Assembly (NCBI GenBank): GCA_001941045.1
Contig: MSHD01000004.1
Coordinates: forward strand, 1-47,963
Reading direction: 5' to 3'
From: Lachnospiraceae bacterium Zagget2
GTDB lineage: Bacteria; Bacillota; Clostridia; Lachnospirales; Lachnospiraceae
Length of the DNA stretch: 47,963 nucleotides
The notes below the pieces were generated by a model that was not told the DNA's origin, searched no databases, and was given only the letters and a program-made list of their open reading frames with translations. Positions 109 through 37,014 of the stretch are shown one piece after another. Position 1 is the first letter of the stretch, and each line of letters starts with the position of its first letter. Made by a program: the position numbers and the translations under genes.

Positions 109-183
109 CGGGGTGTGGCTCAGCTTGGCTAGAGCGCCTGGTTTGGGACCAGGAAGCCGCAGGTTCGAATCCTGTCACCCCGA
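109..183 (+). tRNA. tRNA-Pro (UGG)
   Basis: The cloverleaf is visible: acceptor CGGGGTG (109-115) pairs with CACCCCG (176-182), discriminator A at 183. The anticodon loop TTTGGGA places anticodon TGG at 144-146. The T-loop GTTCGAAT is intact. CCA is not encoded. First gene of a six-tRNA array. Confidence 0.95.
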
Positions 184-199
184 TTTGGAACATAGCCAT

Positions 200-270
200 G
201 CGGGTGTAGTTCAATGGTAGAACACCAGCCTTCCAAGCTGGATACGTGGGTTCGATTCCCATCACCCGCT
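200..270 (+). tRNA. tRNA-Gly (UCC)
   Basis: Acceptor GCGGGTG (200-206) pairs with CACCCGC (263-269). The anticodon loop CTTCCAA gives anticodon TCC. The short D-arm and GTTCGATT T-loop are normal for tRNA-Gly. CCA is not encoded. Confidence 0.95.
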
Positions 271-295
271 TCGGATTTGTAAAGAATCCGAGCGT

Positions 296-369
<74 letters not shown>

Positions 370-395
370 CTGGGGCGGGCAGCCGTCCGGGATAT

Positions 396-470
396 GGTGG
401 GTATAGCGCAGTTGGTCAGCGCGCCAGATTGTGGCTCTGGAGGCCCAGGGTTCGAGTCCCTGTACCCACC
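396..470 (+). tRNA. tRNA-His (GUG)
   Basis: Acceptor GTGGGTA (397-403) pairs with TACCCAC (463-469); discriminator C at 470. A G at 396 can supply the extra G-1 residue that pairs with C73 in tRNA-His. The anticodon loop TTGTGGC gives GTG. Confidence 0.95.
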
Positions 471-485
471 CTGAATCAAAGATAA

Positions 486-557
486 TGGGCTATCGCCAAG
501 CGGCAAGGCACAGGACTTTGACTCCTGCATTCGCTGGTTCGAATCCAGCTAGCCCAG
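486..557 (+). tRNA. tRNA-Gln (UUG)
   Basis: Acceptor TGGGCTA (486-492) pairs with TAGCCCA (550-556), discriminator G at 557. The weak first pair U1-A72 is typical of tRNA-Gln. The anticodon loop CTTTGAC gives TTG. Confidence 0.95.
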
Positions 558-711: not shown

Positions 712-824
712 GCAAAAATGAAAACTCCGGCTTCTCTTTTTTGACGCGGAAAAAGTCGAAAAACAGAAAAATTTTAGAAAAATTGCCAATGTACATTTTG
801 AAATTCACAACGTATAATGAAGTA

Positions 825-1005
825 CGAAAAAGAGAGAACGATAGCGATATCCTTTCTCTCTTGATCAGACATATTTATGGGTGGCGCTTACCCCCTAATC
901 CCCCTTAATGAATAAACCCTCCCTTTTGATTATTCAAATAAAGGCGCCATCGATAAAAGCAAAGCAGAAAGCCCAGAGGTTTCCCGCCTCCGGGCTTTCT
1001 TTTTA
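825..1005 (+). ncRNA. Candidate small regulatory RNA with C-rich anti-Shine-Dalgarno loops
   Basis: The 469 bases between the tRNA-operon stop signal and the response regulator hold no convincing ORF but do look like a short transcription unit. A perfect -10 (TATAAT, 813-818) lies upstream, though I see no good -35. Predicted RNA from about 825: a 9-bp hairpin (830-838 with 854-862); a second domain closed by TGGCGC (882-887) pairing GCGCCA (944-949); inside it a 6-bp hairpin (909-914 with 931-936) exposing a 16-base loop containing CCCTCCC; and a terminator at 966-1005. A second unpaired C-rich stretch (CCCCC twice, 891-906) sits in the internal loop. C-rich unpaired loops are a known feature of Firmicute antisense sRNAs that pair with ribosome binding sites (RsaE and FsrA classes). 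Function here is inference; homology to a named family was not recognised. Confidence 0.5.
966..1005 (+). terminator. Intrinsic terminator upstream of the two-component operon
   Basis: Nine base pairs (966-974 with 992-1000) plus an inner GAGG/CCTC stem (976-979 with 987-990) are followed by a T-rich tail. No gene ends just upstream, so it most likely ends the small-RNA transcript at about 825. Confidence 0.85.
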
Positions 1006-1138
1006 CATGGATTTTACATATAGAACATACGCGTTTTACAGGGTGGTATTAGGATGATGGGAGCCCGTGGGAAAATTTTGTTTGCATGGGGAAGCTTTGT
1101 GTTATAGTATGTTTACATAGAGAAGGGCGGAGATGGAA

Positions 1139-1810
1139 ATGGCGCTGATTTATATTGTGGAAGATGATCAGAATATCAGAGAAATCGAGAGTTTTGCGCT
1201 GAAAAACAGCGGATATAATGTGAGGGATTTCGGCTGTGCGAAAGATTTTTATCACCAGCTGGCCGAAAAGGCACCGGATTGCGTGCTGCTGGATGTCATG
1301 CTGCCGGATGAGGACGGGCTGGAGGTTGTGCGAAAGCTGCGTGCGATTCCGGATACGAAGAAGACGCCGATCATCATGGTGACGGCCAAGACGACGGAGA
1401 TCGATAAGGTCAAGGGTCTCGACATAGGCGCGGACGATTACATCACAAAGCCCTTTGGCGTGATGGAACTGATTTCCCGTGTGAAAGCACTGCTGCGGCG
1501 CAGTATGCGGATTGAGGAGGAAAAATTCCTGACAGCGGGAGATATCTTTATGGATGGCGAAAAACACATGGTCTATGTAAAGGATGAGCCCTGTGAGCTG
1601 ACGTTTAAGGAGCATGAGCTTCTGAAACTGCTGATGCAGAACCAGGGGATTGTCATGTCAAGAGATGTGATCATGGAGCGGATCTGGGGCATTAATTTCG
1701 AGGGCGAGTCCCGGACGCTGGATGTGCACATCAAAACGCTGCGGCAGAAGCTGAAGTCAGCGGGGAGTCTTATTAAGACCGTACGGAATGTGGGGTATAT
1801 GATAGAATGA
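1139..1810 (+). CDS. OmpR/PhoB-family response regulator
   Basis: Cytosolic transcription factor, partner of the histidine kinase that overlaps its stop. The receiver domain (about residues 1-120) shows the acidic pair in VEDD, the phospho-acceptor Asp in LLDVMLPDEDG, the conserved Thr in MVTAKT and the Lys in ITKPF. A winged-helix DNA-binding domain follows (about 125-223), ending in the family signature TVRNVGYMIE. Two ATGs compete, 1133 and 1139. The GGAG at 1129-1132 is correctly spaced only for 1139, which gives the usual start (MALIYIVEDD). A plausible weak promoter lies at 1081-1108 (TTTGCA, 16 bases, TATAGT). The gene shares ATGA with the kinase, so the two are probably translationally coupled. 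The regulon is unknown. Confidence 0.92.
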   Translation: MALIYIVEDDQNIREIESFALKNSGYNVRDFGCAKDFYHQLAEKAPDCVLLDVMLPDEDGLEVVRKLRAIPDTKKTPIIMVTAKTTEIDKVKGLDIGADDYITKPFGVMELISRVKALLRRSMRIEEEKFLTAGDIFMDGEKHMVYVKDEPCELTFKEHELLKLLMQNQGIVMSRDVIMERIWGINFEGESRTLDVHIKTLRQKLKSAGSLIKTVRNVGYMIE

Positions 1811-3153
1811 AAAAGAAGATCCGGCGGGAATTCATGCTGGTGGCGCTGCTCACGATTGTGCTGACTGCGGTATCCATGACCGCGGTGTTTTATGAGCTTT
1901 TTAAAAAGGAGGTCATGAATGAGCTGGAGTCTTATACCCGCGTGCTTGGCAGTGCAACGGTATTTGATGTCGCCGCAGCGGAGTCGGCAGAAGGCCTCAC
2001 GGACTGGGAAGTGCGCATCTCCCTGATCGCGGCGGACGGAACCGTGCTCTATGATAACGACGTGGATGTTGGAGGCCTGGACAATCACGGCGATCGCCCG
2101 GAGGTGTCGGAGGCGCTTGAGGAAGGCAGTGGAGAGTCGATTCGCAGGTCGGATACGTTGGACAGCAGCGCTTTCTATTACGCCGTGCGGCAGGAGGATG
2201 GGACGGTGCTGCGCGTGGCAAAAGCGAGCTCGAGCATCTGGCGCATTTTCCTGAGCGCGCTGCCGATCGTTGTGGTCACGGCGATCGTTATTTTCCTTCT
2301 GTGTATGTTGCTTGCAGCACGTGCTACGCGAACCCTGATGGCGCCGATCGACTCGCTGGCGGAGCATCTCGACGAGTGTAATGAAACGCCGGCATATGAG
2401 GAGCTGGTTCCTTTCGTGCAGACCATTCGAAGGCAGCATGAGGACATTCTGAAAAATGCAAGGATGCGGCAGGATTTCACGGCGAACGTCTCCCACGAGC
2501 TGAAGACGCCGTTGACCTCGATCTCCGGTTACGCGGAACTGATTGAGCATCAGATGGCAGCTCAGAAAGATATTCCCCGTTTCGCGGGAGAGATCCATCA
2601 CAGTGCGACCCGGCTGCTGAACATGATCAATGATATCATCCGGCTTTCAGAGCTTGATGTGATGACTCCGGCGGAAGAGTCGATGGAGCGGCTGCCGCTG
2701 CATCAGCTGGCGCAGAACTGTGTCGATATGCTTCAGGTCAGCGCTGAGAAACATCAGGTGACACTGAGTTTTAAAGAAGAATCAGCTTATATCCATGGAA
2801 ATAAGGAGATGGTGGAGGAACTGCTCTACAATCTCTGTGATAACGCGATCCGCTATAACAACCCGAACGGAAGTGTGACGGTTACGGTAGGAGCAAAAGG
2901 CGAAAAGATATTGCTCGAGGTGGCCGATACGGGCATTGGCATTCCGAAGAAACACCAGGAGCGGGTGTTTGAACGTTTTTACCGGGTCGACAAGAGCCGA
3001 TCGAAGGCGACCGGCGGAACCGGCCTGGGACTCGCGATTGTCAAGCATATTGTGGCGCAGCACAGTGCGCAGCTTGAGCTTCAGAGTGAGCCGGGGAAGG
3101 GCACGACGATCACAATTCTCTTTGAAAACGCTGATAAATCTGTTATACTGTGA
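1807..3153 (+). CDS. PhoR-like membrane sensor histidine kinase
   Basis: 448 residues. Two membrane segments (about 9-30 and 149-172) bracket an extracellular sensor domain of about 120 residues. A HAMP-like segment follows, then the H-box with phospho-acceptor His at about residue 230 (NVSHELKTPLTS), the N-box (DNAIRYNN), G1 (DTGIGIP), the F-box (FERFYRVDKSRS) and G2 (GGTGLGLAIVKH). This is the complete architecture of PhoR/ResE-class kinases. It starts four bases before the regulator ends. The signal sensed cannot be read from the sequence. No terminator separates it from the thioesterase 26 bases downstream, so they probably share a transcript. Confidence 0.92.
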   Translation: MKKKIRREFMLVALLTIVLTAVSMTAVFYELFKKEVMNELESYTRVLGSATVFDVAAAESAEGLTDWEVRISLIAADGTVLYDNDVDVGGLDNHGDRPEVSEALEEGSGESIRRSDTLDSSAFYYAVRQEDGTVLRVAKASSSIWRIFLSALPIVVVTAIVIFLLCMLLAARATRTLMAPIDSLAEHLDECNETPAYEELVPFVQTIRRQHEDILKNARMRQDFTANVSHELKTPLTSISGYAELIEHQMAAQKDIPRFAGEIHHSATRLLNMINDIIRLSELDVMTPAEESMERLPLHQLAQNCVDMLQVSAEKHQVTLSFKEESAYIHGNKEMVEELLYNLCDNAIRYNNPNGSVTVTVGAKGEKILLEVADTGIGIPKKHQERVFERFYRVDKSRSKATGGTGLGLAIVKHIVAQHSAQLELQSEPGKGTTITILFENADKSVIL

Positions 3154-4449: not shown

Positions 4450-4531
4450 GCGGGCATGGCGGAATTGGCAGACGCGCAGGATTTAGGTTCCTGTGCCGCA
4501 AGGCGTATGGGTTCGAGTCCCACTGCCCGCA
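4450..4531 (+). tRNA. tRNA-Leu (UAG)
   Basis: Acceptor GCGGGCA (4450-4456) pairs with TGCCCGC (4524-4530), discriminator A. The anticodon loop ATTTAGG gives TAG, and a long variable arm (TGCCGCAAGGCGT) marks a class II tRNA. A likely own promoter lies at 4412-4440 (TTGACG, 17 bases, TATGAA). A perfect 10-bp inverted repeat with no T-tract (4385-4407) precedes it. Confidence 0.95.
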
Positions 4532-36899: not shown

Positions 36900-36911
36900 C
36901 AATCGTTCCTG

Positions 36912-37004
36912 TACATCGTCCCTACGTTGGCATTATCCAAATCAGGTATAAGGGTCGAGACTCCTTAGCCTCCTCTCAGCCCGTCGCACGAGCTCCCCTG
37001 TCTG
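36912..37004 (-). promoter_or_regulatory. TPP riboswitch (THI element) controlling thiWMED-cytX
   Basis: On the minus strand the conserved order is seen: GGGGAGC, GGGCTGAGAGG, GACCCTTATACCTGAT, TGGATAATGCCAACGTAGGGA. These are the pyrimidine-sensing and pyrophosphate-sensing helices and the P1 closing strand of the thiamine pyrophosphate aptamer. Confidence 0.97.
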
Positions 37005-37014
37005 GTTTTCTAAA

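Follow-up and report, generated by a model that had tools for sequence, protein, structure and literature searches.

The window analyzed here, a 47,963-nt stretch of DNA from Lachnospiraceae bacterium Zagget2, contains at 825..1005 on the plus strand what appears to be the gene of a small RNA of about 180 nt (176-207 nt among 13 aligned homologues), which is probably a stand-alone, trans-acting sRNA whose redundant C-rich motifs would pair with the Shine-Dalgarno (SD) regions of mRNAs. Comparison with homologues supports the predicted gene boundaries, a promoter motif, covarying stems and a near-invariant C-rich core with predicted exposure. What we infer is its transcription, its pairing with mRNAs, the choice of SD regions as targets and a mostly repressive action. 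We consider it a putative new family of C-rich Firmicute sRNAs, a class already known, and its status as a gene is drawn from the comparative evidence.

Organization of the sRNA gene

As read from sequence and fold, positions 785-1005 of the window comprise, all on the plus strand, a promoter, a 5' hairpin of variable sequence, a C-rich stem-loop in two storeys and a hairpin read as the terminator. The conserved -35 region GCCAATGTACA (785..795), identified by a pattern scan and in the promoter alignment, includes the hexamer TGTACA (790-795), and the -10 hexamer TATAAT (813..818) is found both by sequence reading and by the scan. The 5' hairpin (826..866; 38.5% mean identity) is followed by the main stem P1 (874..957, with arms at about 874-889 and 942-957), which is indicated by the fold and by comparison and closes the C-rich domain. 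In the large loop of this domain lies the C-run block CCCCCTAATCCCCC (891..904), which folding predicts to be unpaired, with CCCCC at 891-895 and at 900-904. The alignment further defines a 28-base core, ATGAATAAACCCTCCCTTTTGATTATTC (908..935), which is the inner hairpin with a 14-base loop, ACCCTCCCTTTTGA; CCCTCCC is located at 917-923, within the inner loop at 915-930. A terminator hairpin with TTTT (966..1004) ends the gene, its stem spanning 966-1000 and its loop containing Cs in all forms seen (UUCCC here, UCCCC or CCCCC in others). The earlier note had described a C-rich small RNA unit of about 180 nt at this place, and its -10 hexamer, stems and C-runs read as it claimed.

The promoter, TGTACA-17-TATAAT, has 10 of 12 matches and a spacer of 17. 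The scan is weak by itself, with 3 promoter-like sites in 3 kb where 3.1 are expected by chance; the promoter call carries weight because the motif is conserved across homologues, CAATGTACA-N14-19-TATAAT being exact in 12 of the 15 homologous loci. TATAAT is found in 14 of them, and the fifteenth (L006) is cut off. The remark in the earlier note that no -35 was evident is thus wrong. When the CAATGTACA promoter element was searched as a regulon marker, 15 places were found, of which 12 are the small RNA and three are single others. Transcription would start near 825.

Because the tRNA operon upstream has its own promoter with 12 of 12 matches (49-77) and a scan-listed terminator (670-701), the small RNA is regarded as a unit separate from that operon. 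A 133-codon frame that runs antisense through the tRNA cluster (129-530, minus strand) looks spurious. The strong terminator that had been claimed for the small RNA is present as a stem followed by TTTT, but its plus-strand U-tract falls below the rule of the pattern scan, which lists the stem on the minus strand only; the plus-strand terminator is our reading of the hairpin plus TTTT. In homologues from outside the window clade, the 3' arm of this stem is U-rich, but no U-run follows the full stem. With a putative promoter and a putative terminator of its own, the RNA appears to have the stand-alone gene organization of C-rich Firmicute sRNAs. Since the 966-1000 stem scores as a minus-strand terminator, it may also stop transcripts that arrive from the opposite side. 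The minus strand of 891-923 carries four G-runs (GGGAGGG, GGGGG, GGGGG), a possible DNA G-quadruplex sequence.

Predicted structure and covariation

The fold of 825-1003 has an energy of -58.1 kcal/mol and a z-score of -6.29, with none of 200 shuffled sequences as stable, and the z-scores in four relatives are -9.05, -7.07, -6.73 and -5.51. The 5' hairpin is predicted in all 12 folded homologues; its stability in L007 and L008 does not stand out from that of shuffled sequences, of which 39 and 45 of 200 were as stable. P1 and the terminator stem were recovered by RNAalifold from the 13-sequence alignment, which leaves out two of the 15 loci: L002, whose searched 210 bases are identical to those of L001, and the cut-off L006. 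Together these stems contain 24 pairs; all 311 cells are paired, and in seven pairs both partners have changed (29 cells). None of 500 shuffles attained the observed percentage of paired cells, number of cells changed on both sides or covariation score, while two of the five covariation measures were matched by shuffles (changed pairs in 25 of 500 and pair types in 227 of 500). The compensatory changes in P1 are GGCGC/GCGCC in the window clade versus GATAC/GTATC or one-step variants in the rest; many covarying cells reflect this one clade split, so that the independent events are fewer. In the terminator, the pair at alignment columns 185-207 occurs as four pair types. A chance origin is rejected, since homologues with compensatory changes exist, and the occurrence of G-U pairs in P1 assigns the RNA to the plus strand.

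When a longer P1 and the inner hairpin are considered, 96% of 272 cells pair. Both stems proposed in the earlier note, 882-887/944-949 and 909-914/931-936, are present; P1 covaries, whereas the inner stem is invariant in all six pairs, so that the comparison neither supports nor refutes it. The arms of the inner stem are as invariant as its loop, which is more than pairing by the loop requires. Across the 13 homologues, the predicted mean unpaired probability of the C-run block is 0.80-0.94, that of the inner loop is 0.79-0.98 and that of the terminator loop is 0.84. As far as these predictions go, the CCCUCCC loop and the C-run block would be exposed C-rich motifs of the kind that marks the Firmicute sRNA class.

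Conservation of the core

The mean pairwise identity of the 28-base core is 0.995, with one substitution among 13 sequences, compared to 0.668 for the promoter, 0.385 for the 5' hairpin and 0.832 for the terminator; it is 0.258 in the next 100 bases, so conservation stops after the terminator. As the core was chosen for its conservation, it was compared with tRNA stretches of equal length. Whole tRNA genes of the cluster have identities of 0.944 (His), 0.978 (Gln) and 0.971 (Lys) in 11-12 loci, and the 28-column windows of six tRNA genes have medians of 0.960-0.987 and best values of 1.000 for Pro, Gly, Arg and Lys, 0.988 for Gln and 0.979 for His (10-12 loci). The core is thus conserved on a par with the best 28-base tRNA stretches and does not exceed them. 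Across the homologues, richness in C also persists beyond the core, in the C-run block and in the loop of the terminator.

Search for targets

No target conserved across the genus was found by the loop-complement, orthologue and extended-SD searches. The complement of the loop (a 14-mer with up to one mismatch) is not enriched in 17 genomes, with 18 non-self places versus 21 for the reversed control, and five of the 15 non-self sites that were read (of 18) lie just before an ORF start. Two genes were considered individually. The gene adhE was rejected, as it pairs well only in G010 (-24.3 kcal/mol), an 80% complete assembly without a match to the sRNA, while other orthologues with the start in place reach -10.5 to -14.3. 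The gene mtlA pairs in the close orthologues of G014, G001 and G010 (-19.8 to -25.7), and was rejected as a genus-wide target because eight distant homologues reach only -9.8 to -14.0. In the genome of the window itself, neither of the two reached the cut-off.

The extended-SD pattern AAGGGAGGG-N3-10-ATG occurs at 82 places versus 44 for the reversed control, an excess that ordinary SDs explain. Of these sites, 81 were fetched (the 82nd overlaps one of them) and 70 have an ORF of 40 aa or more. These ORFs include five clusters of similar proteins, one of which combines ABC ATPases of two kinds. Only one cluster, a ferredoxin-like gene (G001, G007 and G013), has members in both main clades, and it was rejected: an upstream coding frame ends at its site, the conservation of which therefore has another cause.

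A frozen core without one long conserved complement would fit a regulator of several targets that pairs through one or another segment of the core; it would also fit a protein partner. The latter leads to an alternative in which the core hairpin is the site of a single RNA-binding protein, or serves to titrate another RNA, and in which the C-runs do not act as mRNA seeds. That the six pairs of the inner stem never vary, which loop pairing would not need, and that no target is conserved across the genus both speak for such a role. Titrating RNAs such as CsrB are unlike this RNA, which has one core per molecule and one convincing locus per genome, and the persistence of Cs in the C-run block, beyond the core, as well as in the loop of the terminator also argues against this alternative, which we regard as unlikely.

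The C-rich loop resembles the anti-SD sequence of 16S rRNA, CCUCC, and this resemblance, together with the tRNA-like conservation of the core and the presence of several C-motifs, might suggest a free-standing anti-SD mimic that affects a very large number of mRNAs or initiation as a whole. Such a mimic would be an abundant RNA and a global brake on initiation that arose in the genus after tRNA-Lys, and its core would be tightly held because it meets the initiation signals of many mRNAs, or a ribosomal or initiation partner. The identical facts fit an ordinary multi-target sRNA, however, and we think that neither the mimic, nor the proposed brake, nor this account of the core is at all probable.

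Distribution and gene neighborhood

A DNA search with the whole RNA gave one match in its own genome. Within the genus, a homologue is found in 15 of the 17 genomes, including all 12 of high quality (completeness of 90% or more, contamination of 5% or less); in the two genomes without a match, completeness is 80% and 77%. The same 15 of 17 genomes were found with a covariance model built on the core, and its extra match in G005 (E of 0.1) is at chance level. The earlier note had staked its proposal on the conservation of the stems and C-runs in relatives; in these homologues, P1 and the terminator covary and the C-runs are kept.

Outside the genus, the DNA search of 299 genomes of the family returned only the own genome and eight short matches (E of 0.0008-0.007), and the core pattern with up to three mismatches matched one of 392 genomes of the order, the window's own. 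Covariance model R1 matched five of 397 family genomes, two of which are genus members; the other three matches (E of 0.0015-0.003) were rejected, as they are at chance level for 397 genomes and, by eye, are gene start regions or a plain hairpin. Each genome in this family search yielded several hundred to several thousand candidates, of which 11 were scored, and the filters were stricter, so diverged relatives could be missed. The whole RNA has no match in phages or plasmids, and the exact 28-base core was not found in viral contigs.

The gap after tRNA-Lys was also surveyed in other genera: 60 genomes were searched, 50 matched and 30 loci were listed, one of them the window's own. Of the remaining 29, L149 and L154 were left out of the reading, L162 was without the search motif and L150 ended at the tRNA. 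In the 25 loci left, no comparable RNA was found within about 480 nt after tRNA-Lys, and tRNA-Leu(tag), which is at 4450 in the window, lies within 480 nt in 12 of them. The best reading of these searches is that the RNA has no convincing relative outside the genus and is genus-restricted; the genus seems to have acquired it in the gap that follows tRNA-Lys.

In all 14 loci with a contig that extends far enough, genes of the tRNA cluster are found upstream of the RNA. The -10 hexamer is located 135-234 nt after the last ARAGORN-reported tRNA in 13 loci, the distance of 234 nt belonging to L003, where tRNA-Lys is broken by N. In L012, the only such locus of the 14, the contig starts inside tRNA-Lys and the -10 hexamer follows about 1.2 kb later (L012:45-1289). 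The contig of L006 starts inside the small RNA, and its first 49 bases (L006:1-49, genome G006), directly before the C-run, are unlike the other homologues, which may be a contig-end artefact or a rearrangement.

Downstream, ORFs of 70 aa or more were surveyed, the three longest per locus. The first sizeable gene encodes a PhoB-like response regulator in seven of the 15 loci (L001-L006 and L014), a Na/Pi cotransporter in L007 and L012, and other proteins in L008-L011, L013 and L015; in L010 and L011, the response regulator is the second downstream gene. In the window, a PhoB/PhoR-like two-component pair occupies 1133-3150, and the best NCBIfam match of its regulator is PhoB, below the cut-off (222.5 vs 296.2 bits). 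The position between a tRNA operon and a two-component system, as described in the earlier note, holds in the window clade, whereas only the tRNA side is constant in the relatives. Although the first neighbor is phosphate-linked in nine of the 15 loci, this theme may be inherited gene order and is a lead only.

The RNA ends about 130 nt before the start of the response regulator gene, as a cis-acting leader (an attenuator or riboswitch) of that gene might. A role in cis is argued against by the replacement of the downstream gene while the RNA is kept (across species: regulator, Na/Pi cotransporter, sortase, acetyltransferase and thioesterase), as well as by a promoter-like site before the regulator (1081-1108), which comes from the scan with its chance frequency; we consider such a role very improbable. 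Least probable of all is a small peptide gene, the frame of which would run from an ATG at 908 through MNKPSLLII into a short tail that varies: the ATG and these residues are identical in 14 of 14 loci, with a synonymous single change in L003, and the frames are 16-19 codons long in seven of them, but no SD was found in any of the 14, the 20 nt upstream are C-rich, the nine codons show almost no synonymous change, frame lengths range from 10 to 66 (171 in the cut-off L006) with differing tails, and the surrounding stems covary as RNA.

Relation to known sRNAs and proposed mode of action

At the gathering cut-off, Rfam release 15 (4227 families), which includes models of LhrC and RsaE, gave only tRNA and TPP matches in the window; the TPP riboswitch is at 36902-37009 on the minus strand, with 66.3 bits. 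For positions 660-1135, a search with E up to 10 gave 16 matches, all far below the cut-off (best, 23.5 vs 76 bits), and all 70 matches in the 14 homologous loci are tRNA. The earlier note had recognized no named family, and the covariance models agree with it as far as the small RNA is concerned. In the literature searched, nothing was found on this small RNA; a microbiome-wide set of candidate structured RNAs may contain it (PMC8040213).

Three comparisons can be drawn. LhrC of Listeria monocytogenes, in the expression of which the LisRK system is involved, has three UCCC sites and can bind a G-rich SD region with any one of them, and its C-rich motifs are likewise repeated in a stem-loop, a single-stranded stretch and a terminator loop; it exists in five copies, however, compared to a single copy in the window genome (PMC4132741). 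The window RNA also differs from LhrC in its two-storey loop and near-invariant 28-base core, and has no Rfam match. Like RoxS/RsaE, which has several C-rich regions (four in RoxS) able to pair with G-rich mRNA sequences (PMC5419742) and is known for redox control (PMC4409812), the window RNA has more than one C-run, but it has no match to the covariance model. With FsrA and other UCCC-motif Firmicute sRNAs it would share a C-rich seed directed at the SD as the presumed mechanism (PMC4132741), whereas it is without a family match and found in one genus only.

SD pairing is taken as the most likely mechanism because the exposed, redundant C-rich motifs match the plan of LhrC. We propose that a promoter of its own directs transcription of the RNA from near 825, that a terminator of its own ends it near 1004, and that the RNA folds into the 5' hairpin, the C-rich two-storey stem-loop and the terminator with its C-containing loop. 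Pairing with the G-rich SD regions of several mRNAs would start at the exposed C-runs, namely CCCCCUAAUCCCCC, the ACCCUCCCUUUUGA loop and the loop of the terminator, and would block translation of these mRNAs or change their stability, similar to the action of the redundant C-rich motifs in LhrC and RoxS.

The regulatory RNAs of Lachnospiraceae look hardly charted in the searchable literature, where the papers retrieved on the subject deal with Bacteroides or with CRISPR. A family with 13 aligned homologues, covariation and a near-invariant putative seed region makes its targets directly testable, and the tRNA-grade conservation of the core in an RNA found in one genus only suggests that its partners may be many, or very constrained.
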